This document shows, piece after piece, positions 1-20,100 of a stretch of 35,841 bases of DNA; the stretch's first letter is position 1, and every line of letters starts with the position of its first letter. The notes under the pieces are model-generated. The model saw only the letters and a program-made list of their open reading frames with translations, was not told where the DNA came from and did no database searches. Position numbers and translations under genes: made by a program. The DNA comes from an uncultured Pseudacidovorax sp. (GTDB taxonomy: Bacteria > Pseudomonadota > Gammaproteobacteria > Burkholderiales > Burkholderiaceae_C), in contig NZ_CAJYES010000145.1 in the NCBI RefSeq assembly GCF_913773995.1, forward strand, positions 1 through 35,841, written 5' to 3'.

Positions 1-516
1 CTGCCGATGATCCTGGCGGGCGCGCCGCTGTGGGTGATCGTGCTGACGGCGCTGATGCTCAACGTGCGCTTCGTGGTGTTCAGTGCGCACTGGCGGCGTT
101 ACTTCGGCCTGCTGCCCCGGCCGCAGCGGCTGGGGCTGGCCTATCTGGCGGGCGATCCGGTGTACGTGCGCTTCATGCAGCGCTACCCGCGGCGCTCGCC
201 CGACCAGCTGGCGTACTTCCTGGGCCTTGCGCTGTTCAACTGGGCGGCGTGGCAGGTGGCCTCGCTGGCGGGCATCTTCCTCGCCGACGCCATTCCGCCG
301 GACTGGGACCTGCGCTTCATCGGCGTGCTCGCGCTGCTGGGCCTGGCGATGCCCATGATCGCGGACCGGCCCAGCTGGCTGGTGGCCGCGGTGGCCGGCA
401 CCATCGGCTGGATGGGACAGGGCTGGCCCTTTGGTCTGCAGGTGATCGCAGCCATTGCCGTCGCCATGGCGGCCGGCCACTGGGCGGAACGCCGCCCGCG
501 CATCGCCACGCCATGA
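1..516 (+). CDS. azlC: AzlC family branched-chain amino acid permease, large subunit (5' partial)
   Basis: The frame is open to the left edge, so the start lies outside the window; 171 residues are visible against about 230-250 for the family. AzlC is the larger membrane subunit of the AzlCD pair, which exports branched-chain amino acids or analogues across the inner membrane. The visible part has the family-typical NVRFVVFSAHWRR motif after a hydrophobic segment, followed by several hydrophobic stretches near the C terminus (for example around the LALLGLAMPMIA segment). Its stop overlaps the azlD start in an ATGA arrangement, which implies translational coupling. The assignment rests on recognised family motifs and on the small AzlD partner directly downstream. 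Confidence 0.88.
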   Translation: MPMILAGAPLWVIVLTALMLNVRFVVFSAHWRRYFGLLPRPQRLGLAYLAGDPVYVRFMQRYPRRSPDQLAYFLGLALFNWAAWQVASLAGIFLADAIPPDWDLRFIGVLALLGLAMPMIADRPSWLVAAVAGTIGWMGQGWPFGLQVIAAIAVAMAAGHWAERRPRIATP

Positions 517-851
517 CCGATCTGCATCTGTGGATCGCCATCCTCGCGCTGGCGGGGGTGACCGTGCTCACGCGCGGCGTGTTCCTGCTGCCGCGCCGGG
601 AGCCGCGCCTGCCAGGATGGCTGGCGTCGGGTCTGCGGCATGCACCGCTGGCGGCGCTGATGGCCGTGGTCGTGCCGGAGGTGCTGCGCGGCTCGGCCGG
701 TGCCGCCGTCGCCACGGGCTGGCATGACCCGCGCTGGCTGGCCGTGGCCGTGTCGGTCGCCTGGTTCTGGTGGCGGCGTGGCGTCACCGGACCTGTCGTG
801 GTGGGGACGGCGACCTTGCTGCTGCTGCGTGGGCTGGGCATGGCGGGCTGA
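513..851 (+). CDS. azlD: AzlD family branched-chain amino acid transport protein, small subunit
   Basis: This 112-residue, very hydrophobic protein starts at the ATG overlapping the azlC stop. It carries the AzlD features of an N-terminal membrane segment (WIAILALAGVTVLTRG) and a central L-R-H-A-P-L-A-A-L motif. It would form the small subunit of an AzlCD exporter in the inner membrane. The length matches the family (about 100-115 residues). The 4-bp overlap makes co-translation with azlC likely. Substrate specificity cannot be read from the sequence. Confidence 0.85.
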   Translation: MTDLHLWIAILALAGVTVLTRGVFLLPRREPRLPGWLASGLRHAPLAALMAVVVPEVLRGSAGAAVATGWHDPRWLAVAVSVAWFWWRRGVTGPVVVGTATLLLLRGLGMAG

Positions 852-889
852 GCGGGGGCGTCGCGGTGTTCGAAGCGATGGGGCGGGGC

Positions 890-1025
890 TTCGACAAGCT
901 CAGCCCGAACGGTTCTTGGATCACCTGATCAGCCATCCACTTCGGTATCGGCGGACGGGCCGGCTATGCACCTCGGTATCGGCGGGCTGGTCATTACCCC
1001 CGTTCGCGCTGAGCTTGTCGAAGCG
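890..1025. repeat. REP-like inverted repeat pair in the azlD-SDR gap
   Basis: The half-site CTTCGACAAGCTCAGCCCGA begins near 890 and its inverted counterpart ends near 1025 (core GCTGAGCTTGTCGAAGCG). Between them is a direct repeat of TCGGTATCGGCGG at 942-954 and 973-985. Repeats of this type are common, as I recall, between genes in Comamonadaceae and related Burkholderiales. The inverted halves could form a cruciform or a transcript hairpin. No coding frame in this gap is convincing. Confidence 0.6.
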
Positions 1026-1120
1026 CCTATATACGGCCACCGCACGTGCGTCGCACTGGACGGCTTCGATGCGCGCTTTTCCGACGTCGTGCCGCCTGCG
1101 CGCATGCCTTCATGCTGCCC

Positions 1121-1921
1121 ATGACTTCCGCACTCCAACTCTCTTCCGCCCAAGGGCGCGACCGTTTCCATGGCCGTGTGGTCATCGTCACCGGCGCCGG
1201 CTCGGGCATCGGCGAGGCTATCGCCCGACGCTTCTCCGCAGAGGGCGCCCATGTCGTGCTGGCCGGGGACCATGCCGAGAAGCTCGACAAGGTCGCGGCC
1301 GATCTGCCCGACGAGCGCACGCTGGTGCATGAGGTCGACGTGGCCGATCTGGGCCAGGTCAGTGCCCTGATCGAGGCCACCATCGAGCGCTTCGGCGAAC
1401 TGCATGTGCTGGTCAACAACGCCGGTATCGCACCCGAGGGCGATGCGACCGATGCCTCGGCCGAGGACTTCCATCGCACGCTGGCGGTGAACGCCGGTGG
1501 CGTGTTCAACGGCGCCAAGGCCGCGATGCTGCACCTGGAGCGCAGCCGCGGCTGCATCGTCAACACGGCCTCGGTGTCGGGCCTGGGCGGCGACTGGGGC
1601 CTGGTGGCCTACAACGCGTCCAAGGGCGCGGTGGTCAACCTGACCCGCGCCATGGCACTGGACCATGGCAGCCGCGGGGTGCGGGTGAATGCCGTCTGCC
1701 CCAGCCTCACCTTTACGCCCATGACCGCGGACATGCAGGGCGACCCCGAGACCATGGAGCGCTTCAAGGACCGCATTCCGCTCGGCCGCGGCGCCGATCC
1801 GGCGGAGGTGGCCTCGGTGGTCGCCTTCCTGGCCAGCGATGACGCCAGCTTCGTCAATGGTGCGCTGGTTCCGGTGGATGGTGGCCTGACGGCGTCCAAC
1901 GGGCAGCCGCGGATGTCGTAG
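1121..1921 (+). CDS. Short-chain dehydrogenase/reductase (SDR) family oxidoreductase
   Basis: This is a 266-residue classical SDR using NAD(P)H. From the chosen ATG the cofactor motif TGAGSGIG is at residues 24-31, NNAG at 99-102, the presumed catalytic Ser at 151, and the YxxxK pair at Tyr164 and Lys168, so the active site is complete. The C terminus has the usual final segment ending in VPVDGG. Upstream in-frame starts at 1046 and 1112 exist, but the residues they add (Arg-rich, read from the repeat-flanking region) look non-coding. No strong ribosome binding site is seen at any candidate. It stands alone between the repeat region and a bidirectional terminator. The substrate cannot be inferred; similarity to 3-oxoacyl-ACP-reductase-like SDRs is only general. 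Confidence 0.85.
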   Translation: MTSALQLSSAQGRDRFHGRVVIVTGAGSGIGEAIARRFSAEGAHVVLAGDHAEKLDKVAADLPDERTLVHEVDVADLGQVSALIEATIERFGELHVLVNNAGIAPEGDATDASAEDFHRTLAVNAGGVFNGAKAAMLHLERSRGCIVNTASVSGLGGDWGLVAYNASKGAVVNLTRAMALDHGSRGVRVNAVCPSLTFTPMTADMQGDPETMERFKDRIPLGRGADPAEVASVVAFLASDDASFVNGALVPVDGGLTASNGQPRMS

Positions 1922-1946
1922 CCGACGACGCGGCCTGACCATCCCA

Positions 1947-1982
1947 TGAAAAAGGCGCGCCCGATGGACGCGCCTTTCTTCT
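1947..1982. terminator. Bidirectional rho-independent terminator between the SDR gene and argA
   Basis: A perfect 9-bp stem, AAAGGCGCG at 1951-1959 with CGCGCCTTT at 1969-1977, encloses a 9-nt loop. On the minus strand it is followed by TTTTTC, a good U-tract for ending argA. On the plus strand it is followed by a weaker TTTCTTCTT tract that would serve the SDR gene. Its position between convergent genes fits a shared terminator. Confidence 0.85.
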
Positions 1983-1995
1983 TGGCAAGGCTGCT

Positions 1996-3345
1996 TCAGC
2001 CCAGCTTCTTGACCAGGACCTGGCTCTTGCGGTCCCAGTTGTATTTCTTCTTGCGCGCCTCGGGCAGCCAGTCCGGGCTCACGGGCTGGAAGCCGCGCTT
2101 GATGAACCAGTGCATCGTCCGGGTGGTCAGCACGAAGATGCTGTCCAGGCCGATGGCGCGCGCGCGGTGCTCGATGCGCTTGAGCAGCTTCTCGCCGTCG
2201 CCCTGGCCCTGTGACTGGGGCGAGACGGTGAGGGCCGCCATCTCGGCGGTGCGTGCCTCGGGGTAGGGGTAGAGCGCCGCGCAGCCGAAGATCACGCCGT
2301 CGTGCTCCACCACCGTGTACTGGTGGATGTCGCGCTCGATTTCGGTGCGGCTGCGCTTGACCAGCGTGCCGTCGCGCTCGAAGGGCTCGATCAGCTGCAG
2401 GATGCCGCCGATGTCGTCCACGCCGGCCTCACGCACCGATTCGAGCTTCTCGTCGATCACCATCGTGCCGATGCCGTCGTGCACATAGATCTCCAGCAGC
2501 AGCGAGCCGTCGACGGCGAAGGGCAGGATGTGGTTGCGCTCCACACCGCCCTCGCAGGCCTTGACGCAATGCTGAAGGTAGAAGGCGGTGTCGGTCGGCT
2601 GCTGCGGTGGCGAGAGCTGGGCGAGCCACTTGCGGGCCACGTCCAGGGGCAGCTCGGTGTCGATGGGGTTGTCTTCGCTCACGGGCTGGCTCGGGTCCAT
2701 GGCGATGCCGGGCACTTCGGTCAGGAAGATCAGCTTGTCGGCCTGGATCGACACGGCGACGCTGGTCGCCACTTCTTCCATCGCCAGGTTGAAGGCCTCG
2801 CCCGTGGGCGAGAAGCCGAAGGGCGAGAGCAGCACCATGCTGCCGCCGTCCAGCGCGCGGCGGATGCCGGTGGCGTCCACCTTGCGCACCAGACCGGAAT
2901 GCTGGAAGTCGACGCCGTCGACGACGCCCACCGGCCGCGCCGTGATGAAGTTGCCCGAGAGGATGCGCACCGTCGAGCCCGCCATGGGCGTGTTGGGCAG
3001 ACCCTGGCTGAAAGCCGCTTCGATCTCGTAGCGCAGCTGGCCGGCGGCCTCCTGCGCGCAGTCCAGCGCCACCTCGTCGGTGATGCGCATGCCGTGCGAA
3101 TAGCGCGCCTCGTGCCCCTTGGCCCGCAGCTGCTCGTTGACCTGCGGCCGGAAGCCGTGCACCAGCACGACCTTGACGCCCATGGACTGGATCAGCGCTA
3201 GGTCCTGCGCGATGGACGGCAGCTTGCCGGCCGCGATGGCCTCGCCTGCGATGCCGACCACGAAGGTCTTGCCCCGGTGCGTGTGGATGTAGGGCGCCAC
3301 CGACCGGAACCAGGGCACGAAGGTGAAGTTGAAGACGGCGGACAT
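1996..3345 (-). CDS. argA: Amino-acid N-acetyltransferase (N-acetylglutamate synthase)
   Basis: This 449-residue protein acetylates L-glutamate with acetyl-CoA, the first committed step of arginine synthesis, in the cytoplasm. It has the two-part ArgA structure. An amino-acid-kinase fold (about residues 25-270) includes the LVHGFRPQVNEQL motif; in this family it binds arginine for feedback inhibition. A C-terminal GNAT domain (about 300-440) has the acetyl-CoA loop QSQGQGDGEKLL and a late YNWDRKSQVLVKKL end. The length matches bacterial ArgA (about 440-450). It lies downstream of the VapBC-like pair on the same strand with a 55-bp gap, so read-through from that promoter is possible. The start has no strong Shine-Dalgarno sequence but matches the family N terminus. 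Confidence 0.95.
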   Translation of the reverse strand: MSAVFNFTFVPWFRSVAPYIHTHRGKTFVVGIAGEAIAAGKLPSIAQDLALIQSMGVKVVLVHGFRPQVNEQLRAKGHEARYSHGMRITDEVALDCAQEAAGQLRYEIEAAFSQGLPNTPMAGSTVRILSGNFITARPVGVVDGVDFQHSGLVRKVDATGIRRALDGGSMVLLSPFGFSPTGEAFNLAMEEVATSVAVSIQADKLIFLTEVPGIAMDPSQPVSEDNPIDTELPLDVARKWLAQLSPPQQPTDTAFYLQHCVKACEGGVERNHILPFAVDGSLLLEIYVHDGIGTMVIDEKLESVREAGVDDIGGILQLIEPFERDGTLVKRSRTEIERDIHQYTVVEHDGVIFGCAALYPYPEARTAEMAALTVSPQSQGQGDGEKLLKRIEHRARAIGLDSIFVLTTRTMHWFIKRGFQPVSPDWLPEARKKKYNWDRKSQVLVKKLG

Positions 3346-3400
3346 GCGCGGAGCAGGACTGTGGAAGGTGGAAGCGGAAGGAAGGACGCGAGCCGCCCGT

Positions 3401-3820
3401 TCAGGCGGCAGCGCGGAAGGGGTCGACCAGCGTCAGGTCGCCAAATCGTCGGCCATGCTGCAGATCTTCGGTGTAGAGCGTGACGGCGCCGCTGCGTTGC
3501 GCGGCCTCGACCACCATGGCGTCGAAGATCGAGAGGCCGTGGGCCTGGGCGGTATCGAGCGCCGACTGCACCAGGCGCAGGTCGGTGTCGACCACCTGCC
3601 AGGCGCTGTAGCCGTCGAGCAGGGCGCGCACCGTGTCGGCCGCGATGCGGTGCTTGTGGGTGAGCACGCTGTAGAGCTCGATGAGCACCTGCGTGCTCAG
3701 CACGCCCTCGGCGGCGGCCGCGTGGCGGGCGACGAGCTCGCGCGCTGCGGCCTGCTTGGTCGGCGAGCGCGGATCGACGCAGTACACCAGCACGTTGGTG
3801 TCGAAGAAGGCGAGGGGCAC
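3401..3820 (-). CDS. PIN-domain ribonuclease, VapC-like toxin
   Basis: This is a PIN-domain protein of about 139 residues, expected to be a Mg2+-dependent endoribonuclease neutralised by the adjacent antitoxin. From the GTG start the first metal-binding Asp is residue 7 (FFDTNVLVY). Later acidic positions lie in LIELYSVL, in [12 protein letters not shown] and in the TEDLQHG motif, which completes the usual PIN set. The GTG at 3818-3820 lies 10 bp after the antitoxin stop. An ATG at 3880 would overlap the antitoxin by 50 bp and add about 20 unstructured residues, so I prefer the GTG, though neither has a clear Shine-Dalgarno sequence. The RNA target is unknown. Confidence 0.85.
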
Positions 3821-3830
3821 GGGCGAAGCG

Positions 3831-4121
3831 TCAGTCGGCGGAGCGGGCCCTTGCCCGGAAGTCGCCGTCGTACAGCTCATCGCGCAGGCTGCTGCTGTGT
3901 GGCTGCGCGGCCGGCTGCGCCTCGCTGGCGGCGGCGTCGATGGCCGCCATCAGCCGGGCCGTGGCAGCGTCGCGCAACATCTGGCGGCTGGCCTCGGCCT
4001 CGTTGACGTACTGCTGCAGGAACTCCCGCACCTTGGCGCTCAGCGACGTGCCCTGCTGGATGGCGCGAACGCGGGCGGCCTTGATGAGCTGGTCGTCGAC
4101 GTTGATGGTCAGGTTGGCCAT
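3831..4121 (-). CDS. Ribbon-helix-helix antitoxin of the PIN-domain pair
   Basis: This 96-residue protein starts at an ATG preceded by a good GAGGAA ribosome binding site. Its N terminus ([18 protein letters not shown], then a helix through VREFLQQYV) matches the ribbon-helix-helix DNA-binding fold of VapB/FitA-like antitoxins. The C-terminal tail ([15 protein letters not shown]) is the sort of flexible segment that blocks a PIN active site. It is directly upstream of the toxin gene, so the two would form an autoregulated operon. A candidate operator lies upstream at 4180-4203. Confidence 0.85.
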
Positions 4122-4179
4122 GGGCTTCCTCGCAAACTGGGCGCAGCGTTTGGCGCGGCGGCGGGTGTCGGTCGAGTCT

Positions 4180-4203
4180 ACACGGAAACATGTGAACCCG
4201 TGT
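4180..4203. promoter_or_regulatory. Candidate operator: inverted repeat in the divergent antitoxin/hrpA gap
   Basis: ACACGG at 4180-4185 is the exact inverse of CCGTGT at 4198-4203, and the ACATGT palindrome sits between them (4188-4193). The element lies in the 99-bp gap between the divergently transcribed antitoxin gene and the hrpA-derived frame. This is a typical place for a ribbon-helix-helix antitoxin to bind its own promoter. That it is a binding site is inference. No convincing -35/-10 pair was found beside it. Confidence 0.35.
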
Positions 4204-4220
4204 GCTGCGATACTCGGCCG

Positions 4221-7034
4221 GTGCCGCTCCAGATCGACTTTCCCGATTCCCTTCCCGTATCCGCCAAGCGCGACGAGATCGCCGCCGCCATCCAGGCCCA
4301 CCAGGTGGTCATCGTGTGTGGAGAGACCGGCTCGGGCAAGACCACCCAGCTGCCCAAGATCGCCCTGGCGCTGGGCCGCGGCAAGCTCAACGCACCCGAG
4401 GGCCGCGGCCGACTGATCGGCCACACCCAACCGCGGCGGATCGCTGCCAGCTCCGTGGCCAAGCGCATCGCCGAGGAACTGAAGACGCCGCTGGGCGAGG
4501 TGGTGGGCTACAAGGTCCGCTTCCAGGACCGGTTGAGCCGCGACGCCTCGGTCAAGCTGATGACCGACGGCATCCTGCTGGCGGAGACGCAGACCGACCC
4601 GCTGCTCAAGGCCTACGACACGCTGATCATCGACGAGGCCCACGAGCGCTCGCTGAACATCGACTTCCTGCTGGGCTACCTGCGCGAGATCCTGCCGCGG
4701 CGGCCGGATCTGAAGGTGATCGTCACCTCGGCCACCATCGATGCGGAGCGCTTTGCGAAGCACTTCGAGAGCCGCAACGGGCCGGCGCCGGTCATCTATG
4801 TCTCGGGCCGCACTTTCCCGGTGGAGATGCGCTGGCGGCCCTTCGAGGAATCGCGCGAGTACGACCTGAACGACGCCATCGCCGACGGCGTGGACGAGCT
4901 GTGGCAAGGCAACGCCGCGGGCGACATCCTGGTGTTTCTGCCTGGCGAGCGCGAGATCCGCGAGGCGGCGGACCATCTGCGCAAGCACCTGTCCCATCAG
5001 CCGGTGATGCGCGCGGCCGAGGTGCTGCCGCTGTTCTCGCGCCTGTCGCAGGCCGAGCAGGACCGCATCTTCGAGGGCCACACTGGCCGGCGCATCGTGC
5101 TGGCCACCAACGTGGCCGAGACCTCGCTGACGGTGCCGGGCATCCGCTATGTGATCGATGCGGGCACGGCGCGGGTCAAGCGCTATTCCTTCCGCAGCAA
5201 AGTCGAGCAGTTGCTGGTCGAGCCGGTCAGTCAGGCGGCGGCCAACCAGCGCGCCGGCCGCTGCGGCCGGGTGGCCAACGGCATCTGCATCCGGCTCTAC
5301 GACGAGAAGGACTTCGCCAGCCGGCCGCGCTTCACCGACCCCGAGATCCTGCGCTCATCGCTCGCGGGCGTGATCCTCAGGATGAAGTCGCTGCATCTCG
5401 GCGACGTAACGGCCTTCCCCTTCCTGGAAGCGCCGAGCGGCCGGGCCGTGGCCGATGGCTACCAGCTGCTGGGCGAACTGGGCGCGGTGGACGATGCCAA
5501 CGAGCTGACCGACATCGGCCGCGAACTGGCCCGGCTACCGCTGGACCCGCGGGTGGGCCGCATGATTCTGGAGGGCCGCACGCGCGGTGCGCTGCAGGAG
5601 GTGCTGGTCATCGCCTCGGCCATGAGCGTGCAGGACGTGCGCGACCGGCCGCTCGAAGCCCAGCAGCAGGCCGACCAGGCCCATGCCAAGTTCGACGACG
5701 AGAAGAGCGAGTTCAGCGGCTATTTGACGCTGTGGAAATGGCTGCACGAGGCGCGTGGGGGCGCGCCGGTGGCGCAGACCCGGCGTGAGATGGCCGCCGC
5801 GACGCAGGCGCCGAAGAGGGCGAGCGCGGCGGTGTTGCCGGTGAGCCAGCGGCTGGCGGTGGCGGAGGGCGGCGAGCCCCCACCCCAACCCTCCCCCAGT
5901 GGGGGAGGGAGCGAAGACCCCTCACGCGCGGGGGAAGGCGGCGAGGACCGCGAGGCCATGCTGGTGCGCCTGCGCGCGCTGCAGGCCGAACTCACCACGC
6001 TGCAGGGCGAGTCGCCGCTGATCCTGCCCACGGTGGACTATCAGGCCGTCGCCGCCGTGGTGGGCGACTGGACCGGCATCCCCGTCGGCCGCATGCAGCG
6101 CAACGAGATCGACACCGTGCTCAAGCTGCCGCTGCTGCTGGGCCAGCGCGTGATCGGCCAGGACCACGCGATGGAGATGATCGCCAAGCGCATCCAGACC
6201 AGCCGCGCCGGCCTGGACAACCCCAGCAAGCCCATCGGCGTGTTCATGCTGGCGGGCACCTCGGGCGTGGGCAAGACCGAGACCGCCCTGGCCCTGGCCG
6301 AGGCGCTGTACGGCGGCGAGCAGAACCTCATCGTCATCAACATGAGCGAATACCAGGAGGCGCACACCGTCAGCTCGCTCAAGGGCGCGCCCCCCGGCTA
6401 CGTGGGCTATGGCGAGGGTGGCGTGCTGACCGAGGCCGTGCGCCGCAAGCCCTACAGCGTGGTGCTGCTCGACGAGGTGGAGAAGGCGCACAGCGACGTG
6501 CACGAGCTGTTCTTCCAGGTCTTCGACAAGGGCTTCATGGAAGACGGCGAAGGCCGCACCATCGATTTCAAGAACACGCTGATCCTGCTGACCACCAACG
6601 CCGGCACCGACCTGATCGCCAGCATGTGCCGCGACCCCGAGCTGATGCCCGACCCCGAGTCGATGGCCAAGGCCCTGCGCGAGCCGCTGCTCAAGGTCTT
6701 CCCGCCCGCGCTGCTGGGCCGGCTGGTGACCATTCCCTACTACCCGCTGTCGGACGAGATGCTGGGCAGCATCGTGCGGCTGCAGCTGGGCCGCATCAAG
6801 AAGCGGGTCGAGGCGCGCTACAAGATCCCGTTCGAGGTGGGCGACGACGTCGTCAAGCTGGTGGTCAGCCGCTGCACCGAGAGCGAATCGGGCGGCCGGA
6901 TGATCGACGCCATCCTCACCAACACCATGCTGCCGGACATCAGCCGCGAGTTCCTCACGCGAATGATGGAAGGCAAGCCGATCGAGCGCGTCCGCGTGGG
7001 CGTCGACAACGGCAACTTCACCTACCAGTTCTGA
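4221..7034 (+). CDS. Chimeric frame: N-terminal HrpA DEAH-box RNA helicase joined to C-terminal ClpV/TssH T6SS ATPase
   Basis: This single open frame of 937 residues is made of parts of two unrelated proteins. Residues 1-514 are HrpA: Walker A GETGSGKT at 34-41, DEAH at 138-141, SAT at 170-172, QRAGRCGR at 343-350, ending near [14 protein letters not shown]. HrpA is normally about 1300 residues, so its C-terminal part is gone. Residues from about 576 to the end are the second AAA+ domain of ClpV, which recycles contracted T6SS sheaths: Walker A GTSGVGKT at 679-686, Walker B Asp751-Glu752, a TTNAG sensor, and the C-terminal small domain. ClpV is normally about 870-900 residues, so its N domain, first AAA+ domain and middle domain are missing. 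The joint (about 515-575) is low-complexity and encoded by a GC-rich palindromic repeat. The GTG start at 4221 gives the usual HrpA N terminus; a GTG at 4200 is an alternative. A functional hybrid is unlikely. Confidence 0.9.
5876..5922. repeat. GC-rich palindromic repeat at the hrpA/clpV joint
   Basis: A perfect 9-bp inverted repeat, CCCTCCCCC at 5889-5897 and GGGGGAGGG at 5901-5909, with a 3-nt loop. It is embedded in a C-rich then G-rich block (CCCCCACCCCAACCC before, GAGCGAAGACCCCTC after). It resembles dispersed intergenic repeats of Burkholderiales genomes. Here it is translated as a Pro/Ser/Gly-rich stretch ([20 protein letters not shown]). Its location exactly between two unrelated coding blocks makes it the likely crossover or mis-assembly point. 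Confidence 0.75.
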
Positions 7035-7533: not shown

Positions 7534-8919
7534 ATGGCCGTCAAGATCACGTCCGCTGCCGCAACGCCGCGCCGAGGCGGCCGGCGCGGCAACACGGTGC
7601 GCGTGCATCCGGCCGAGGCCATGCGCATGGCGCTGGGCCTGCACCGCGCAGGCCACCTGGACGATGCCGAGCGGATCTACCGCGAACTGCTCGCCCGCGG
7701 CGTGCGCGATGCCAACGTGCTGCACTTCCTGGGCATGCTCACGTACCAGCGCGGTCGGGCCGACGAAGCGCTCGCCCTGATGCGCGAATCGCTGGCCATG
7801 GACGCGGGCATGCCCGACTGGCACAGCAACCTGGGCAATGTGCTGCTCGATGCGGGGCAGCTGGACGAGGCGGCCGAAGCCTATGCGCAGGCGCTGGCGC
7901 TGCGGCCCGACCATGCCCCGTTTCTCAACAATCTGGGCGTGCTGCTGCACGAGCAGGGCCGGCACGAGGAGGCCGAGCGCGCCTATCTGCGCGCCGTGGC
8001 GCTGGTGCCGGACTACGCCGATGCCTACACGAACTGTGCGTCGCTCTACATGGCGGTCGGCCGGGCTCCCGAGGGCCTGCAGATGTTCTGGCAGGCGCTT
8101 CTGCACGCGCCGCGTCACGCGCGAAGCCGCCATCTGCTGGGTCTGGCGCTGTACCACCTTGGACGCCTGGAGGAGGCGGCTGCCGTCTACCGCGACTGGC
8201 TCAAGGACGAGCCGGACAACGTGCAGGCGCGCCACCATCTGGCGGCGTGCAGCGGCGTCGATGTGCCCGGGCGTGCGGCCGACGGCTATGTCGAGAAGGT
8301 GTTCGACGAATTCGCCAGCAGCTTCGATGCCAAGCTGGCCACGCTGCACTACCGTGCGCCCGAGCTGGTCGCCGACCAGGTGGCGGCCTGCCTGGGCGAG
8401 CCCCGGGCGGCGCTGGACGTCCTCGACGCCGGCTGTGGCACCGGACTGTGCGGCCCGTTGCTGGCGCCCTATGCGCGCCATCTCGAGGGCGTGGACCTGT
8501 CGGCGGGCATGCTGGCCAAGGCCGAGCCGCGACAGGTCTATCACCGGCTGGTCAAGGCCGAGCTGACCGCCTTCCTGCAGCAAAGCGAAGCAGAGAGCCG
8601 CGACCTGATCGTCTCGGCCGACACGCTGTGCTACTTCGGCCGGCTCGCGCCGGTGTTCGAGGCGGCGCAACCCATGCTGCGCCCCGGCGGCTGGCTGATG
8701 TTCACGCTGGAGGCCATCGATGCCGCCCTGCATCCGCAGGGCGCCGGCGTCGAGGGCTTCGTGCTCAATCCCCACGGGCGCTACAGCCACGATGCCGCGG
8801 CCGTGCGTCGGGATCTGGAGTCCGCCGGGCTGGAGCCCGTGGTCTTCGAATCCGTGCACCTGCGCGAAGAGAGCGCCCGCCCGGTACTGGGCTGGCTGGT
8901 CGCCGCGCGCCGCCGCTGA
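7534..8919 (+). CDS. TPR-repeat protein with a C-terminal SAM-dependent methyltransferase domain
   Basis: This 461-residue fusion has about six tetratricopeptide repeats over residues 25-245 (for example the block around SNLGNVLLDAGQLDEAAEAYAQ), then a class I methyltransferase domain. The SAM-binding loop DAGCGTG is at 298-304, followed by the acidic motif GVDLSAGMLAKA. A later segment (DLIVSADTLCYFG, then MLRPGGWLMFTLE) is also typical of the fold. The layout matches predicted TPR-containing methyltransferases (COG4976-like). It lies in a rightward block ending 19 bp before vgrG. It may modify or chaperone a T6SS component or cargo, but no substrate can be named. The start at 7534 is the first ATG, and the basic N-terminal 25 residues are probably disordered. 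Confidence 0.85.
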   Translation: MAVKITSAAATPRRGGRRGNTVRVHPAEAMRMALGLHRAGHLDDAERIYRELLARGVRDANVLHFLGMLTYQRGRADEALALMRESLAMDAGMPDWHSNLGNVLLDAGQLDEAAEAYAQALALRPDHAPFLNNLGVLLHEQGRHEEAERAYLRAVALVPDYADAYTNCASLYMAVGRAPEGLQMFWQALLHAPRHARSRHLLGLALYHLGRLEEAAAVYRDWLKDEPDNVQARHHLAACSGVDVPGRAADGYVEKVFDEFASSFDAKLATLHYRAPELVADQVAACLGEPRAALDVLDAGCGTGLCGPLLAPYARHLEGVDLSAGMLAKAEPRQVYHRLVKAELTAFLQQSEAESRDLIVSADTLCYFGRLAPVFEAAQPMLRPGGWLMFTLEAIDAALHPQGAGVEGFVLNPHGRYSHDAAAVRRDLESAGLEPVVFESVHLREESARPVLGWLVAARRR

Positions 8920-8938
8920 CCTTCACGAGTCCGATTTC

Positions 8939-11797
8939 ATGGCCACACAGGAATTCCGCATCGAAAGCGACTCGCCCGTCAACAGCGAGCTCATGTTCTG
9001 GGGCATCGTCGGCCACGAAGGCCTGAGCCGGCCGGCGGCCTACGAGCTGTCGGTGCTGTCCAAGGCCAACGACCTGGATGCGGCCGATGTGCTGGGTCAT
9101 GCCTTCGACGTGGTGGTCGAGTTCCTGGACGCCGACGGCAACATGCACGAGCGCCACTGCCAGGGCCATGCGGTGCGCTTCGCGCGCCTGGGCGCGGTGG
9201 GGCGCTACTTCGAGTACCGCATCACCCTGCGCTCCTGGTTCTGGCTGCTGACAAAGCGCATCAACGCCCGCATCCACCAGGACAAGAGCGTGCTGGACGT
9301 GATGGACGCCACCTTCGAGGACAGCGCCATCAAGCGCTTCAAGAAGACCAAGCCCAGCGGCGTGGTGGGCGAGCACAAGCCGCGCACGTATTGCGTGCAG
9401 TTCGAGGAAAGCGACTACGCCTTCGTCTCGCGCCTGCTGGAGGACGAGGGCATCTACTACTGGTTCGATGCCCACGACGCGCCGGGCACCATGCTGCTGG
9501 CCGATGGCGCCGGCAATGCGCACGACAAGCTGCCGGTCGTGGGCGAGCTGCCGATGGCCACCGGCGGCGGCGAGGAGCGCTTCGACGAGATCCTGCGCTG
9601 GTGCGATGCACGGTCGTTCACCAGCGGCCGCTATGCCTCGCGCGACAGCGACTTCAAGAAGATCCGCACCGTGCTCAAGTCCGACGCCGACGCCTCGGGC
9701 GAGCACGAGCTGAGCGACCTGGAGGTGTTCGAGTTCCCGGGCGGCTACTTCGAGAACGGTGCGCTCAACCTCAAGCTCGGCGCGCGCATCGACCAGATGG
9801 TGTCCGAGCGCCGCCAGCACTGGGCGCTGACGGCCTGGCCCGACGTGGCGGTGGGCCGCTGCTTCGACTTCAGCGGCGATCCCGACGGCACGCGCGACGG
9901 TGCCTACCTGATCGCGGGCTGCACGATGGTGCTGATGCATCCCGGCTACGAAGGCATGGACGCCGAGCCGCGCGACGGTGCGGCCGGGCGTCTGCTGACC
10001 GCGCTGCTGGCCGACGATGCCGTCAACGCCCAGGTGCTCGACGCGGTGGGCCGCCTGGTGGCCGAGGAGCCGCTGCTGCACACCGGCCGGCGTGGCGCGG
10101 GCCTGTTCCTGCTGACGGCACTGCCCGCCGACACCACTTTCAAGCCGCCGCGGCTCACGCCGCGGGTGCGCATGCCCGGGCCGCAGTCGGCCCTCGTGGT
10201 GGGCGCCGCGGGCAAGGAGCACGACGTCGATCCCTTCGGCCGCGTCAAGGTGCACTTCCATTGGGACCGCTACGACAAGAGCGACGAGAAGTCCACCTGC
10301 TGGATCCGCGTGTCGCAGCCCTGGGCCGGCAAGGGCTGGGGCGGCTACTTCGCGCCGCGCATCGGGCAGGAAGTGGTGGTCGACTTCCTCAACGGCGACC
10401 CCGACCGGCCGCTGATCATGGGCCGCGTCTACAACGACGACCAGCCCATCCCCTATCCCAGCGCCACGCAGAGCGGCTTCAAGACGCGCTCCACGCCCGG
10501 CGGCGGGCCCTCGAACTACAACGAGATCATGTTCGAGGACAAGAAGGGCGCCGAGCTGGTGAACATCCATGCCGAGCGCAACATGTCGACCTCGGTGGAG
10601 GCCGACGACTCCACCAGCGTCGGACACGACCAGTCCCTGATGGTCCACAACGACCGGACCTCGACGGTCGAGGGCAACGAGAAGACGCTGGTCGTCAAGG
10701 ACCAGACCAACGAGGTCAAGAAGAACCAGACCAACACGGTCCGCCTGACCCAGACCAACTACATCGATCTGGGGCAGGTCAACTTCATCGGCAGCGCCGG
10801 CCAGGCCACCACCGTGCAGGGCGACGTGACCTGGACCACGCCGCTGAACTATGTGCTCACGGCGTCCACCTCCACGACGGTGAACACGGCCAAGTTCACG
10901 CTCAACGCGGGCCACGTGGAGCTCAACGCCACCGCCGCGAACTCCTTCAAGATCGCCAGCACGGGGGCGATCACCATCGCCGGTCAGGCCGGTCGCACCG
11001 ATTCCACCGTGGGCGACCACAAGATCACGGCCACCGGCTCGCTGCAGAGCTTTGCGCCCAAGGTGCTGCAGGGCGCGGCCACCAGCATGGACGTGGTGGC
11101 CGGCACCAGCCTGTTCATGTCGGGCCTGGCGGACACCACGGTGACCGGCATGAAGGTCAACGTGACGTCGCTGGGGCCGCAGAAGGACGCGACGCTCGGC
11201 ATGTTCAGCAAGACCATCCTGGGCATGGAGAGCAAGAACAACATCGGCATGGTCTCGCAGGGGGTGCTGGGCCTCAAGTCCGAGAGCATCGCCGGCCTTG
11301 GCCTCAAGCAGCTGATGCTCAAGGTCGACGACGCGGTGCTGCACACCCTCAAGGCCGGTGCGGGCAGCGGCGGGGCGGGCGCGATGCTGGCGCTGGTCAA
11401 GGGCATCAACGTGATCGCGCCCCTCCTGCAGATCGCCCTGGGCGTCAAGGACCTCAACTCGGGCGTCAGCCGGGCGTCCGACGCCTACGAGAACGCGGCC
11501 AAGAAGCTGGCCGAGGCCGCGAAGGAGATGCAGGCCCTCAATCCCGACCTGGCGGGCAAGCTCACGCGGCTGTCCAGCCGGGCCCAGCAGCGCGCCAGCG
11601 AGGAGCACACCAAGGAGATGGTGGGCACGGGGGTGGCGATCGCCGGCGCCGCGCTGGGCGTGGCCGCCACGGGCGTCGCCGCGGCCGGGGTGGTGGACGC
11701 CGCCGTGACGCCGATCGCCGATGCCGCGATGAAGGGTTTCCAGGAGGGCGCGGCCGAGGGCATCGATCTGCTGTCCAAGGGCCTGCCGCCCGTCTGA
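8939..11797 (+). CDS. vgrG: VgrG (TssI) T6SS spike protein with a long C-terminal extension
   Basis: The 952-residue protein forms the trimeric spike at the tip of the Hcp tube. Residues 1 to about 370 are the gp27-like base. A gp5-like OB fold follows at about 425-520, including DPFGRVKVHFHWD and the IGQEVVVDFLNGDPDRP motif. A beta-helix of short V/T-rich repeats runs over about 530-620 (SVGHDQSLMVHNDRT and similar). The extension (about 620-952) has more beta-type repeats, then from about 794 an alpha-helical part with a Gly/Ala/Val-rich stretch (about 894-923). No known catalytic motif is visible in the extension. The ATG at 8939 gives the usual N terminus and lies 19 bp after the methyltransferase stop. 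Confidence 0.93.
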   Translation: MATQEFRIESDSPVNSELMFWGIVGHEGLSRPAAYELSVLSKANDLDAADVLGHAFDVVVEFLDADGNMHERHCQGHAVRFARLGAVGRYFEYRITLRSWFWLLTKRINARIHQDKSVLDVMDATFEDSAIKRFKKTKPSGVVGEHKPRTYCVQFEESDYAFVSRLLEDEGIYYWFDAHDAPGTMLLADGAGNAHDKLPVVGELPMATGGGEERFDEILRWCDARSFTSGRYASRDSDFKKIRTVLKSDADASGEHELSDLEVFEFPGGYFENGALNLKLGARIDQMVSERRQHWALTAWPDVAVGRCFDFSGDPDGTRDGAYLIAGCTMVLMHPGYEGMDAEPRDGAAGRLLTALLADDAVNAQVLDAVGRLVAEEPLLHTGRRGAGLFLLTALPADTTFKPPRLTPRVRMPGPQSALVVGAAGKEHDVDPFGRVKVHFHWDRYDKSDEKSTCWIRVSQPWAGKGWGGYFAPRIGQEVVVDFLNGDPDRPLIMGRVYNDDQPIPYPSATQSGFKTRSTPGGGPSNYNEIMFEDKKGAELVNIHAERNMSTSVEADDSTSVGHDQSLMVHNDRTSTVEGNEKTLVVKDQTNEVKKNQTNTVRLTQTNYIDLGQVNFIGSAGQATTVQGDVTWTTPLNYVLTASTSTTVNTAKFTLNAGHVELNATAANSFKIASTGAITIAGQAGRTDSTVGDHKITATGSLQSFAPKVLQGAATSMDVVAGTSLFMSGLADTTVTGMKVNVTSLGPQKDATLGMFSKTILGMESKNNIGMVSQGVLGLKSESIAGLGLKQLMLKVDDAVLHTLKAGAGSGGAGAMLALVKGINVIAPLLQIALGVKDLNSGVSRASDAYENAAKKLAEAAKEMQALNPDLAGKLTRLSSRAQQRASEEHTKEMVGTGVAIAGAALGVAATGVAAAGVVDAAVTPIADAAMKGFQEGAAEGIDLLSKGLPPV

Positions 11798-11812
11798 TCG
11801 CCGCCGTCTTCC

Positions 11813-14413
11813 ATGCAGGTCCACAAGCCTTCCGCGCTGTCGCTGATGCAGCGCAGCTTCGAGTTCCGCGGCCGATCCGGCTGCGCGGTGAGCGCGCTGA
11901 TGGCCGTGCGCATGGGTCATCCCGACGGGCTGCATGAGCAGACGCTGTGGAAGCTCGTGCAGGCCCACATCGAGGGCGGGCTGGTCGACGAAGGCATGGC
12001 CAAGCTCACGCCGGAGTTCCTGGTGTCGGGCCGGGTGCATGCGCCCGCCCACGTGCCCGGCGTGGCAGCCAGCGTCACGTTGGGGGGCGTCAGCAAGCAG
12101 GTGCTGGCCTTCGCCCCGCGCTTCTGGGTCGACAACACCGTGCGCACCGGCGGTGCCTTCGAGCCCGTTCCCCTGGACTGGGCCCAGGCCTACGGAGGGG
12201 CAGACTTCCCGGCCAATCCGGCGGGCGTGGGGCGCATGCCCGTCGATGGCGTGCACTGGCTGCCGCGGCTGGAGTTGCCCCACTCGCGGGTGGGCACGCC
12301 GACTGACGCCGCCGTGCCGGCAGGCTTCGGTGCGCTCGGGCCGATGCATCCCCAGCGCGCGGCACTGCGGGGCACCTACGACGAGCAGTACCTGCGCCAG
12401 CATGCGCCCGGCTTCGCGCCGGACCTGGACTGGTCGCACTTCAACATGGCGCCGCGCGACCAGTGGCTGCCCGGGCCGCTGCGCGGCGATGAGCCTTATC
12501 TGCTGGAGAACCTTCATCCGGCCGGCACGGTGTTGCAGGGCACGCTGCCGCGACTGCGCGCCCGCGTATTCGCCCAGCATGCGGCCGGCGCGCACGGCGA
12601 GGCGACGCTGCGCGAGGTGCCGATGCGGCTGACGACCGTGTGGTTCCTGCCCGAGGTGGAGCGCTTGGTGCTGGTGTGGCACGGCCTCCTGCAGGTGGAG
12701 GAGGACGATGCCTCGGACATCGCGCACCTGCTGGGCGCACTCGAACGCCTGGACGAAGGCCGCGCCGACGAGCATTACGCGCAGGTGCTGGAGCGTCGCC
12801 TCGACCCGCGCTTCGGCGGCATCGAGAGCCTCGACGAGAGCGTCCTGCTGCCGGCGGACTGGGCGGGGGTCGACGCGGACTTCGACGAGGCCGGCGCCGC
12901 TTTCCAGATGGAGGGCCTGCATGCCGAGGCGCAGCTGCGCCGGGCCAGCATCGACGTGGGCCTGGCGCGGGAGCGGGCCATCGAGGCGGGCCGCGACCCC
13001 GATGCGCTCGGCCTGAAGATGCCGCAGCGGGAGGCTGCGCCCACGCCTTCGGAGTTGCCGGCCTACCTCAAGGCCAAGCAGGCGCAGGCCGAGAAGGAGC
13101 ATTGGGCGGTGGTCGACGAGCTGGCGACGCAGCTCGAGAAGATCATGGACAGCGAAGACCTGCTGGGCGTGCGCACTGCCGATCTGATCCAGCGTGGGCC
13201 GCCCGACTACTCTGCCGAGCGTCATCTGGCCCAGCTCCAGGCGCAGGGCGCGGCGCTGCCGCTGGCGCCGGCCGCGCTGCTGAGCAAGCTGCGCCTGCAG
13301 GAAGACGCGCAACGGGTGGCGTACTGGCAGTCCGCCCATCTGCAGGCGCCAGCGCTGCCGCTGACGGGCGATGCGGGCCGGCAGCGCCGGCTGGAGATCG
13401 AACAGATCATCGCGCTCGGCCTGCGCACCCTGCCCTGGATCGACCTGACCGGCGTGGACCTGTCCGAGCTGGACCTGCGCGGCTTCGACTTCACCGCGGC
13501 CTGGCTGGAGAGCGTGAGCCTGCGCGGTGCCAACGTGTCGGGCTGCCGATTCGTCGGTGCGGTGCTGGCCCATGCGGACCTGCGCGGCTGCATTGCGGTG
13601 GGGGCGGATTTCACGGCGGCGAACCTCGGCGGCGCCGTTCTCGCCGGCGCGGTGTTCGACCAGTCCAACCTCGAAGGGGCCACGCTGGTGCGCAGCCAGC
13701 TCGCACAGTCCAGCCTGCGCCATGCAAAGCTGACCGGTGCCACCCTGCACGACAGCATCTGGGGCGCCGCCGACTGGACGGGGTGCGCCTTTCCCGGCGG
13801 TACCTTCCACAAGCTCGATCTGCGTGCGCTGGTGCTGGCCCAGGCCGACCTGCAGGGCGCGACCTTCATCGAATGCGATCTGCGCGGCGTGGATCTCTCG
13901 GGGGCGCAGCTCGCGGGGGCGAACTTCATCACCTGCGACCTGCGGGAGGCGCGGATGAACGGCGCCCGCGCGCGCGGCATGGTGTGCACGCTCGGCACCG
14001 TGCTGGACGGCATGCAGGCCGCGCAGGCCGACTTGAGCGAGGCCAACTGGGGCCAGTGCAGCGCGGTGGGGCTGATCGCCCCCGGCGCGCGCTTTGCCGG
14101 CGCCTGTCTGCACCGCACCGACCTTCGGCGCGCCGATCTCAGTCGGGCCAACGTCCAGGCCGCCCTGATGACACGCGCCCGGCTCAGCCATGCGGTGCTG
14201 CACGGCCTCGATGCCCGCGATGCCGTGCTCACTCGCGCCAGCCTGCTGGCCGCCGACCTGCGGCAGGCCAACCTCTTCGGCGCGGACCTGTCGCGCGTGG
14301 CGCTCAGCGGCGACACCCGCCTGGACGGCGCCCTGCTGGAACGCTGCCGCACCTGGCCCCGGCTCGATGCGCAACAGCAGGCCGTCGCGGCGCAGCGGGA
14401 GGCACTGGCATGA
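11813..14413 (+). CDS. DUF2169 domain protein with C-terminal pentapeptide repeats (T6SS accessory/adaptor)
   Basis: In this 866-residue protein, residues 1 to about 330 match the DUF2169 type that accompanies vgrG genes (features include LDWAQAYGG and a late WFLPEVERLVLVWHG). About 330-540 is helical and charged. From about 542 a long run of pentapeptide repeats (pattern A(D/N)LxG, for example LDLRGFDFTAAWLES) continues nearly to the end and should fold as a right-handed beta-helix. DUF2169 proteins are thought to help load cargo onto VgrG. The start is 15 bp after the vgrG stop, and its own stop overlaps the next start (ATGA), so the genes are translationally coupled. No secretion signal is seen. 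Confidence 0.85.
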   Translation: MQVHKPSALSLMQRSFEFRGRSGCAVSALMAVRMGHPDGLHEQTLWKLVQAHIEGGLVDEGMAKLTPEFLVSGRVHAPAHVPGVAASVTLGGVSKQVLAFAPRFWVDNTVRTGGAFEPVPLDWAQAYGGADFPANPAGVGRMPVDGVHWLPRLELPHSRVGTPTDAAVPAGFGALGPMHPQRAALRGTYDEQYLRQHAPGFAPDLDWSHFNMAPRDQWLPGPLRGDEPYLLENLHPAGTVLQGTLPRLRARVFAQHAAGAHGEATLREVPMRLTTVWFLPEVERLVLVWHGLLQVEEDDASDIAHLLGALERLDEGRADEHYAQVLERRLDPRFGGIESLDESVLLPADWAGVDADFDEAGAAFQMEGLHAEAQLRRASIDVGLARERAIEAGRDPDALGLKMPQREAAPTPSELPAYLKAKQAQAEKEHWAVVDELATQLEKIMDSEDLLGVRTADLIQRGPPDYSAERHLAQLQAQGAALPLAPAALLSKLRLQEDAQRVAYWQSAHLQAPALPLTGDAGRQRRLEIEQIIALGLRTLPWIDLTGVDLSELDLRGFDFTAAWLESVSLRGANVSGCRFVGAVLAHADLRGCIAVGADFTAANLGGAVLAGAVFDQSNLEGATLVRSQLAQSSLRHAKLTGATLHDSIWGAADWTGCAFPGGTFHKLDLRALVLAQADLQGATFIECDLRGVDLSGAQLAGANFITCDLREARMNGARARGMVCTLGTVLDGMQAAQADLSEANWGQCSAVGLIAPGARFAGACLHRTDLRRADLSRANVQAALMTRARLSHAVLHGLDARDAVLTRASLLAADLRQANLFGADLSRVALSGDTRLDGALLERCRTWPRLDAQQQAVAAQREALA

Positions 14414-15462
14414 CGGTGAGCGCGGAACTCCTCGCGCTGGGCGTGGGGCTGGGCGAAGCCTTCGATGGGCAGGATTTCCGGGGCGGGCGCTACGAAGGCG
14501 TCTACCTGGCGGGTGGCATGTTCTCGTCCTCATCGTGGGCCGCCGCGGACCTGCGCCAGTGCGATGGCCGCGAGGCCGTGTTCGACCACTGCGATCTGGC
14601 CGGCGCCACCCTTGCCGGGGCCAACCTGCGTCATGCCGTGTTCAACCGCTGCAGCCTGGTGCATGCGGACCTTCGCGGCGCCAATCTCCATGCCGCCACC
14701 TTCAACGAATGCGATCTCTCGCATGCGCAGATGGCGCAGGCCTGGCTGGGCATGGCGAAGCTGCAGGGCTGCAGCCTGCAGCATGCGGGCCTGCACGGCT
14801 GCGAGCTCGACTCGACCACCCTGTCGGAGTGCAGCCTGGTCGACGTCAATGCGGACGGCACGCGCTGGCTGCACACCGTGGTGGCGGGCTGCGATGTGAC
14901 GCAGCTCACCTGGCAGGGCGCCACCATGACGCGGGCCAGCTTCTTCCGCACGCCGTTGCCGGGCAAGCGCTTCGACGGCGGGCGATTCGAGTCCTGCCAG
15001 TTCTCGCAGTGCGACCTGAGCGGATGCTCCTTCGTGGGCGCGCAGCTGAGCCAGTGCAACTTCCAGGGCAGCACGCTGGACGGCTGCAACTTCGCCGATG
15101 CCCAGGCCCCGATGGCCGTGTTTGCGCAGGCTCGCGGGCGCGAGGTCGTCTTCACGGGTGCGCGGCTACGGCAGTCGCTGTTCGGCGGCGCGGCGCTGCC
15201 CGGCGCCCGCTTCGCCGGGGCCGACCTCTACCAATGCCACTTCGCCGGGGCGGTCCTCAAAGGCGCCCTGCTGGCCGACGCCGACTGCACCTATGCCGAC
15301 TTCAGCGGCGCGGTGCTGCGTGCGGCCGACCTGCGCGGCGCAGTGCTCCTGCGCGCGGTGCTGCATGCGACCGACCTGGAAGCGGCCCAGCTCACCGATG
15401 CGGCGCGCGCCCTGGGAACGGACCCGGTGCGCGCCCGTGCAGAGAACTGGACCGCGGCCTGA
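14410..15462 (+). CDS. Pentapeptide-repeat protein, Cys-rich, T6SS accessory
   Basis: Nearly all of this 350-residue protein consists of pentapeptide repeats, predicted to form a four-sided beta-helix. The repeats are unusual in often having Cys where Gly, Arg or another residue is common (for example FDHCDLAGATLAGANL and CELDSTTLSECSLVDV). It overlaps the previous gene by 4 bp and precedes the DUF3540 gene by 20 bp. Its close link to the DUF2169-pentapeptide gene suggests that the two act together on VgrG or its cargo. An alternative is an immunity-like or structural role; the sequence does not settle this. Confidence 0.85.
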   Translation: MTVSAELLALGVGLGEAFDGQDFRGGRYEGVYLAGGMFSSSSWAAADLRQCDGREAVFDHCDLAGATLAGANLRHAVFNRCSLVHADLRGANLHAATFNECDLSHAQMAQAWLGMAKLQGCSLQHAGLHGCELDSTTLSECSLVDVNADGTRWLHTVVAGCDVTQLTWQGATMTRASFFRTPLPGKRFDGGRFESCQFSQCDLSGCSFVGAQLSQCNFQGSTLDGCNFADAQAPMAVFAQARGREVVFTGARLRQSLFGGAALPGARFAGADLYQCHFAGAVLKGALLADADCTYADFSGAVLRAADLRGAVLLRAVLHATDLEAAQLTDAARALGTDPVRARAENWTAA

Positions 15463-15482
15463 GCATTTCACTAGGAGTTCCC

Positions 15483-16130
15483 ATGACCACCGTGCATGTC
15501 CCCCCGGCGCCGACGCGTTCCTCCCGTCGCCGCGCACATCCCGCCTCCTCATCGTGCGGCCTGCCGTCGGCCGGCTGGCGGGTGGCGACGGTGCACAGCG
15601 TCGATGAAGACGGCCGGATCGTGCTCGGCGATGCACCGGCCACAGCCGCGCGGGCCGCGCTCGGCTGCCTGGTGGCGGTGCAGCAGGGCGATACCGTGGC
15701 CGTGCTGTCCCAGGACGGCTGCGCCTGGGTGATGAGCGTGCTGGCCCGGCCCGGCCCGCAGGACCTGGCCCTGCGCAGCCCGGGCGCGCTCGCGCTGCGC
15801 GGCAGTGCCATCGACGTGCAGGCCGGCGAGGCGCTGCGGATGCAGGCGCCACAGGTCGCGCTGGATTGCGAGCAGGCCCAGGTCACCGGTGCGCGGCTGA
15901 ACGTGTTCGGCGCCAGCATCAAGGCCATCGGGCAGGCGCTGAGCAGCGTGTTCGACCGCGCCCATCACCATGCCGGGCAGTACATGCGCACCACGCAGGG
16001 CCTGGACCGCACGCAGGCCCGCCACGTCGAACTCCATGCCAGCCAGCTGCTGCAGGTCCATGCGGAGCATGCGCTGGTGGAGGGCGAGAAGCTGGTCAAG
16101 GCACGCGGTGCCCAGATCCACTTCGGCTGA
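15483..16130 (+). CDS. DUF3540 domain-containing T6SS accessory protein
   Basis: This 215-residue protein starts at an ATG with a strong AGGAG ribosome binding site. After a basic, probably disordered N terminus (about 1-30) there is a compact beta-rich region (about 31-110, for example WRVATVHSVDEDGRIVLGD), then a segment ending in a repetitive coil (RHVELHASQLLQVHAEHALVEGEKL) resembling the VgrG spike end. This architecture and the position between pentapeptide and PAAR-like genes match DUF3540 proteins. It may extend or cap the spike, or adapt the PAAR-like tip to VgrG. The function is inferred from neighbours. Confidence 0.75.
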   Translation: MTTVHVPPAPTRSSRRRAHPASSSCGLPSAGWRVATVHSVDEDGRIVLGDAPATAARAALGCLVAVQQGDTVAVLSQDGCAWVMSVLARPGPQDLALRSPGALALRGSAIDVQAGEALRMQAPQVALDCEQAQVTGARLNVFGASIKAIGQALSSVFDRAHHHAGQYMRTTQGLDRTQARHVELHASQLLQVHAEHALVEGEKLVKARGAQIHFG

Positions 16131-16138
16131 GGACCGCC

Positions 16139-16534
16139 ATGTTCGCGAACTGTCAGATGATGGGCACCGACATGGGCTTCCCGGACGTGTGCCTGACCCC
16201 CTCGCCCGCGGGACCGGTGCCGGTGCCTTATCCCAACATCGCGATGGGTCCGATGGCCGTGCCCAACTGCCCCACGATCCTCATCATGTGCACGCCGGCC
16301 CACAACCTGGGCACCACGGTGCCGATGACCAATGGGGACAACGCGGGCGTCGCCATGGGCGTGGCCTCGGGCACGGTGATGGGACCGTCGCGGCATGTGA
16401 CGGGCGCGTTCACGGTGCTGTTCAACGGCATGCCGGCCAGCCGGCTCACCAGCATGAGCCTGCAGAACAGCACCAACTGTCCGGGCGTGCGCGTCGTGCC
16501 CAGCCAAGCCGTGGTGCTTCTGCTCGCGCCTTGA
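16139..16534 (+). CDS. PAAR-like DUF4150 domain protein (T6SS spike tip)
   Basis: The 131-residue protein begins at an ATG eight bases after the DUF3540 stop, with GAGG just upstream. It consists almost entirely of the PAAR-like/DUF4150 fold: MGFPDVCLTPSP and PVPYPNIAMG near the start, then the central SGTVMGPSRHVTGAFTVLFNG and the ending PSQAVVLLLAP. Such proteins form a metal-stabilised cone that sharpens the VgrG spike and may carry toxin domains. Here there is no C-terminal toxin extension, so it would be a plain tip. Confidence 0.88.
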   Translation: MFANCQMMGTDMGFPDVCLTPSPAGPVPVPYPNIAMGPMAVPNCPTILIMCTPAHNLGTTVPMTNGDNAGVAMGVASGTVMGPSRHVTGAFTVLFNGMPASRLTSMSLQNSTNCPGVRVVPSQAVVLLLAP

Positions 16535-16657
16535 ACGCGCGAGCCGGCGGCCTACCTCTTCCGGCAAGATTGCCAAGGCACGGCACGCCATGAATACTGG
16601 TTCGCTCGCAGGGGCCCGGCGATCCGGCCGGGCGGTCGTCGCGCGGAGAGCTTCTTC

Positions 16658-18598: not shown

Positions 18599-18640
18599 GG
18601 GCGGCTCCGCGACCGAGGACAACTGCGACAAGGAGCGCGC

Positions 18641-19417
18641 GTGGAAATTGAGATCGTCACCCTGACCCGGCCCGGCGGGCGTGACTACAACGAAGACGTC
18701 TACGGCCACTGGTACAACGACCGCCATGTGCTGTGCCTGGTGGCCGACGGCGCCGGAGGCCACGGCGGCGGCGACGTGGCCTCCGCCACAGCGAGGGCCA
18801 GCCTGCTGGGCGGCTTTGCGACGCAGCCAGGACTCGATGCCGACGTGTTGCGCGCGCTGGTGGCGCGTGCGAACGAGGCCATCGTGGAGCGTCAGGCCGA
18901 AGGCGGCAAGCTCGCCGCCATGCGCACGACGCTGGTGATGGCCGCCATCGACCTGGAAGCGCAGGCCATGGTGTGGGCGCACAGCGGCGACAGCCGCGCC
19001 TACCTGTTCCGCGGCGGCGCGGTGGTGGCGCGCACCACCGACCACAGCCTGGTGCAGCAGATGGTGGCCGGCGGCATGCTCGATGACGAGGGCGCCCGCC
19101 TGCATCCGCAGCGCAACGTGCTTCTGTCGGCCCTGGGCTCGGTCACCGAGCCGCCGCAGATCGACATCTCCGAGCGCATGCGGCTCGAACCGGGCGATGC
19201 GCTGCTGTTGTGCTCCGACGGTGTGTGGGAGGTGCTGGGCGACGAAGGTCTGGCCAGCAGCCTGCAGGCCTCGCGCACCCCGCGGCAATGGACCGACCAG
19301 ATCGATGCCCAGATCATTGCGCGGGCCAAGCCCGGGCAGGACAACTACACGGCCATCGCCCTGTGGGTCATGCCTGAAGGCCACGACGATGAGACGCGGC
19401 TGATGCCCGCAGCCTGA
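18641..19417 (+). CDS. pppA: PP2C family Ser/Thr phosphatase, T6SS regulator
   Basis: This 258-residue protein phosphatase 2C-like enzyme would remove phosphate from the FHA protein or its kinase and so switch the T6SS off. Metal-binding motifs are intact: RDYNED (Asp15, Asp19), VADGAGGHGGGD (Asp36-Gly37), AHSGDSRAYL, CSDGVWE and QDNYTAI. The start is GTG with AAGGAG upstream. It is the last gene of the rightward accessory block. The name pppA follows the T6SS phosphatase of Pseudomonas by role and context only. Confidence 0.88.
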   Translation: MEIEIVTLTRPGGRDYNEDVYGHWYNDRHVLCLVADGAGGHGGGDVASATARASLLGGFATQPGLDADVLRALVARANEAIVERQAEGGKLAAMRTTLVMAAIDLEAQAMVWAHSGDSRAYLFRGGAVVARTTDHSLVQQMVAGGMLDDEGARLHPQRNVLLSALGSVTEPPQIDISERMRLEPGDALLLCSDGVWEVLGDEGLASSLQASRTPRQWTDQIDAQIIARAKPGQDNYTAIALWVMPEGHDDETRLMPAA

Positions 19418-19483
19418 CCGCAGCGGTCGGTGTCGTTTTTGGCTTGCAGGGCGCGCCGAGTTCCTGCATCGGGCGTGAAGGCG

Positions 19484-19514: not shown

Positions 19515-19537
19515 CGTGCTCGGGCGCAGGCCCCGGC

Positions 19538-20023: not shown

Positions 20024-20100
20024 GATTCGAGCCTTTCAGTGTGTGAGTGAAGTGGAGTTGCCTTCGATGCGAAGAGAGGAAGGCTGTCTGGAGAACGATG

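Follow-up and report, generated by a model that had tools for sequence, protein, structure and literature searches.

An in-frame HrpA-ClpV chimera in a Pseudacidovorax draft genome, very probably an assembly mis-join at a shared palindromic element

How does a single open reading frame come to begin as an HrpA helicase and end as a ClpV ATPase? The frame in question was found in a Pseudacidovorax draft genome (5.37 Mb, 261 contigs) on contig C145; the window analysed here is this whole contig (35,841 bases). The frame (3681-7034, plus strand) is open over 1117 codons and passes from an HrpA N-terminal half to the second ATPase half of ClpV/TssH. Residues 170-704 (window 4188-5792) matched positions 46-569 of 1284 in the HrpA family TIGR01967 with 851.6 bits, which passes the curated cut-off (722.75). 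The match was not full-length, as the C-terminal half of HrpA is absent from the frame. Residues 754-1107 (window 5940-7001) matched positions 498-851 of 852 in the ClpV family TIGR03345 with 569.1 bits. With the N half of ClpV absent, the frame did not reach the cut-off of that family (884.95, with both AAA+ domains). The Pfam domains followed the same order (DEAD, Helicase_C, HA2_N and HA2_C, then AAA_2 and ClpB_D2-small). An earlier note, made from the sequence alone, had described an in-frame HrpA-ClpV chimera whose halves contain no stops or frameshifts and whose switch coincides with a palindrome at 5889-5909. The two family matches within one open frame bear this description out, and the palindrome lies between the end of the HrpA match and the start of the ClpV match. 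Among the best 80 of 582 confirmed relatives, the closest named matches of the frame came from Pseudacidovorax sp. RU35E and Xenophilus species, which makes a place in the Comamonadaceae probable.

The features of the window are collected in Table 1. HrpA sequence is absent from the initial 173 codons, which overlap two features of the opposite strand, a PIN-domain gene and a small frame. This minus-strand pair (3401-4191), in which the small upstream frame had no Pfam match, resembles a VapBC-type toxin-antitoxin pair. T6SS families were matched downstream of the ClpV part (8720-21637). An inverted repeat with 28-base arms, 93% complementary, was observed at 885-1027 and perhaps belongs to another dispersed repeat family.

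Table 1. Features of the 35,841-base window (contig C145).
Feature	Position	Strand	Basis or remark
PIN-domain gene	3401-3880	minus	PF01850
Upstream extension of the open frame, non-HrpA	3681-4199	plus	HrpA match starts at residue 170
hrpA N-terminal part (DEAH-box RNA helicase)	4200-5850	plus	TIGR01967; own upstream neighbourhood leftward (window 1-5851)
Switch point, 35-base block common to the hrpA and clpV linker elements of relatives	5878-5912	plus	
Perfect palindrome, dispersed REP-like element	5889-5909	.	
clpV/tssH C-terminal part (second AAA+, D2-small)	5913-7034	plus	TIGR03345, PF07724, PF10431
VgrG, T6SS	in 8720-11797		family match
Pentapeptide-repeat protein, T6SS region	11813-14413		
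FHA protein TagH, T6SS	16658-18598		
T6SS sheath large subunit	20147-21637	minus	

The earlier note had proposed looking in the same genome for the missing HrpA C-terminal and ClpV N-terminal halves, and for the same repeat at their ends. Both halves were found. A search with the C half of RU35E hrpA located the HrpA C half at C197:9721-12036 (92% identity), 73 bases short of the end of a 12109-base contig. The ClpV family search located the ClpV N half (positions 1-491 of 852) at C216:39556-41061, 44 bases short of the end of a 41105-base contig. The end of C216 falls within a palindrome, and C197 starts a few bases ahead of one. Each complementary arm stops at a contig end with a repeat of the same type next to it, which is the pattern expected of a mis-join. 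TIGR03345 had no match above its cut-off anywhere in this genome. A protein on C105 matched the family over its full length with 813.5 bits, under the cut-off, and showed 43% identity to the ClpV part of the chimera; we take it as a putative ClpB-type paralogue.

Gene order was compared with that of same-genus genomes. In the near relative G001, the four arms are paired the other way: the left part of C145 continues into C197 and C216 continues into the right part of C145, over approximately 19 and 73 kb respectively. Window 1-5851 is collinear with G001 C11:271737-265913 (93%), and G001 C11 from 271737 down to 252313 corresponds to C145 1-5851 followed by C197, with one gap. The blocks of window 5871-35841 follow the order of G001 C1:32359-88, and G001 C1 from 73375 down to 88 corresponds, divergent stretches excepted, to C216 followed by C145 5871-35841. 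The orders in G008 and G010 match the G001 arrangement over the stretches compared. In G010 hrpA, the window match and the C197 match are only 11 bases apart; in G001 clpV, the distance from the C216 match to the window match is 37 bases. Since the arms pair otherwise in these relatives, C145 consists of two loci switched at the repeat.

Matches to hrpA and to a clpV-type gene were found at separate places in all 14 same-genus genomes, and no HrpA-ClpV fusion, which the earlier note had thought worth seeking in related genomes, was present in any of the 24 other genomes searched (these 14 and 10 further genomes of the order). The hrpA frame has at least 1336 codons in 14/14 same-genus genomes, and the hrpA of G009, G013 and G014 carries one stop inside the matched stretch. 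In RU35E, hrpA is a single frame (L004:6524-10534). The best clpV match in G006 is a 213-codon fragment, and the clpV frame of G010 has 577 codons, an N gap being the cause.

The palindrome at the switch reads CCCTCCCCC-AGT-GGGGGAGGG. As single-stranded DNA it is predicted to form a 9-bp hairpin (-11 kcal/mol; 4/200 shuffles folded as well or better). The linker elements of hrpA (G010) and clpV (G001, G010) in relatives are alike at 34/35 bases. Window 5878-5912 is identical to G010 hrpA at all 35 bases and to the clpV of G001 and G010 save for the spacer base; at the spacer base the window is of the hrpA type, and beyond it the sequence is that of clpV. The blocks of G010 hrpA and G001 clpV are alike for 22 bases to the left and 12 bases to the right of the spacer base. 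Translated in the frame of the chimera, the repeat gives Pro/Gln/Ser/Gly codons, and it stands in that same frame in relatives, in hrpA (G010) and in clpV (G001). The frame is open at the joint because the switch falls inside a block that both linkers of relatives read in the same frame. Consequently, the missing stop is weak evidence, as the repeat reads open in that frame in relatives too.

The linker comparison covered hrpA from 12/16 loci and clpV from 6/8; linkers that did not fit the search expression (G003, G004 and G005 among others) were left out. The hrpA linker of G008, G001, G006 and G011 is a short Ala/Pro stretch, and that of G010 holds an in-frame palindromic insert. The clpV linker of G001 contains a 14-residue in-frame stretch derived from the element, with the same DNA in G010 beside its N gap, and the clpV linker of G008 is without the element. 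By eye, C197 opens with sequence similar to the second half of the insert in G010 hrpA. C216 closes with sequence like that of the insert in G001 clpV. A second copy of the 35-base block was not found in this strain's genome. In G012, a different insert was observed in the hrpA linker (L099; SPQPSPAGGRGG...LLRAGEGGGEGG), which may reflect a separate insertion of a palindrome into this linker.

The palindrome is not confined to this locus. Allowing up to 3 mismatches, it had 26 forward and 21 reverse matches in the genome, and a reversed control pattern had none; merging the matches of both strands before counting gave 23 loci. Such a short palindrome dispersed above chance is what characterises REP/REPIN elements. 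So does its pairing: 8/23 loci (on C102, C226, C236, C258, C260, C65, C75 and C79) contain a pair of palindromes spaced by 64-88 bases, in an inverted orientation judged by eye from the flanks. The two palindromes of G010 hrpA face the opposite way to these pairs. Copies without mismatch, with any spacer base, occurred in 10/15 genomes of the genus, this genome included. One RAYT-like gene was detected by Y1_Tnp, the single match above the Pfam cut-off (31.9 bits); it scored 73.0 bits against NF047646 (cut-off 80). A search for an autonomous transposase near the element gave this one gene, which is not beside any of the copies found.

Seventeen element loci were checked for open frames and 6 of them (L137, L139, L140, L145, L147 and L132) were family-scanned. 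A UvrA frame (L137, G000:C198:3524-6544, minus strand) holds an in-frame palindrome pair in mid-gene (SPSPSGGGQGWGP...PHPDFPPEGEGE), and the TIGR00630 match continues through the pair. Beyond the pair, the same frame has another, different repeated stretch (TVRAE...). In a YgiQ frame (L132, G000:C16:1632-3248), the profile match starts at position 199 of 558 with an element copy adjoining and a contig end near, so that an in-frame copy is possible in ygiQ as well. Frame inspection and family scanning of L139, L140, L145 and L147 yielded no clear evidence that the element is inserted within a gene. In other bacteria, in-frame REPs within uvrA and within genes for RNA helicases are described in PMC3733652, which places the present element in a known kind; REP/REPIN elements, intragenic REPs included, are likewise a described kind (PMC3733652; see also PMC3116915).

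Next, the element was related to the contig ends. Seven of the 23 element loci lay 120 bases or less from a contig end (0.27 expected, P = 6e-9). The 120-base limit was picked after the locations had been seen, and the count lacks the lengths of C186, C189 and C231. A strict half-palindrome was present in the first 100 bases of 0/40 contig starts (C145, C216 and 38 others spread over the contig numbers of the 261 contigs; one of the starts reads N) vs. 0/40 interior controls, and in 2/578 tiles of three stretches of the same genome. With no excess over interior controls, the element appears to account for few of the contig breaks. A 17-base adapter-like sequence occurred 7 times, all within approximately 30 bases of a contig end (control matches, 0); we take it to be part of an Illumina adapter. 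The clpV element of G010 (L125, G010:C21:26000-38000) contains a 10-base N gap (bases 5642-5651) amid long C/G runs, which indicates that the site is hard to assemble in that genome too.

These results support the earlier note's suggestion that repeat recombination or a mis-join produced the joint, the missing halves lying at repeat-bearing contig ends and the genes being separate in relatives. Of these, an assembly mis-join at the palindromic element common to both linkers is very probably the cause. The four arms, their ends, their order in relatives and the element shared by the relatives' two genes are direct observations. The strain would carry hrpA and clpV at separate, distant loci, each with a REP-like palindromic element in its linker, as in the relatives, and the two elements would share a near-identical block of approximately 35 bases round a GC-rich hairpin. 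Reads failing or becoming ambiguous at this block would leave two left arms and two right arms at one collapsed repeat. The assembler could then have joined the hrpA front to the clpV back as C145 and left the clpV front (C216) and the hrpA back (C197) loose; the frame would have stayed open since both elements share a reading frame in relatives. We infer that both elements are also present in this strain and that the switch arose in the assembler rather than in the chromosome. A mis-join is favoured because the assembly is fragmented and the gene order in relatives is unrearranged. As reads of ordinary length should span 35 bases, the error would also require either a small k-mer or coverage lost over the hairpin.

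A real chromosomal event is unlikely. Recombination between repeat copies, as a large inversion or as a deletion with a retained circle, would truly have joined the hrpA front to the clpV back and broken both genes. The block that both genes share in relatives stands exactly at the switch, REP-like elements are dispersed through the genome and the frame is clean. Moreover, a real reciprocal rearrangement would leave the identical four arms, and loose ends close to the second repeat copy would look alike. However, the reciprocal junction of clpV front and hrpA back is unassembled, with both arms ending at contig ends, and the change needed is large: hrpA and clpV occupy different contigs in G001, the former approximately 266 kb into a contig of 1.25 Mb. 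The separation of the two genes in all 14 same-genus genomes argues against recombination as well. Slightly less likely still is a more general version, in which a real junction would reveal same-frame REP-like elements in the linkers of unrelated genes as recombination joints at which domains are spliced without a frameshift. If this were true, the linkers of hrpA, clpV, uvrA and perhaps ygiQ would be ready recombination joints, and this strain would show one such event.

An established gene under selection, whose product would couple an RNA helicase to an unfoldase of the ClpV type, is highly improbable, in line with the earlier note's doubt about a selected fusion. The whole frame is open, but the fusion is absent from the 14 same-genus and 10 further genomes, and the best 80 of 582 confirmed relatives match only up to query residue 761. 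The product would contain ClpV without its front and HrpA without its back, while both halves lie elsewhere in the same genome. No published HrpA-ClpV fusion or like case was found in a literature search, among the matches listed. This candidate was rejected, as no examined relative carries the join. Contaminant or mixed-sample DNA joined to the genome would also give a chimeric contig; it is scarcely to be expected here, since G001, G008 and G010 are near relatives for both halves alike (93-97% of residues matching), this genome also contains the missing halves, and its listed contamination is 0.87% (completeness 99.99%).

Intragenic palindromic elements can, on the mis-join reading, yield clean, in-frame but false fusion genes at assembly, without a telltale stop. 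Such chimeras could pass into protein databases as novel domain architectures. Checking contig ends for the missing halves exposes them.

Compared with known systems, the chimera is like HrpA (TIGR01967) in its motor core through the HA2 region, the C-terminal half being instead on C197. It is like ClpV/TssH (TIGR03345) in the second AAA+ domain and D2-small, with T6SS genes adjoining, the front half being on C216. The element resembles REP/REPIN sequences as a short GC-rich palindrome that is dispersed, paired at 8/23 loci and in-frame in uvrA; by contrast, the sole transposase relative here falls under its NCBIfam cut-off. The Rickettsia palindromic elements, as described in PMC3733652, are likewise palindromic in-frame inserts within genes, although their hosts belong to an unrelated bacterial group.
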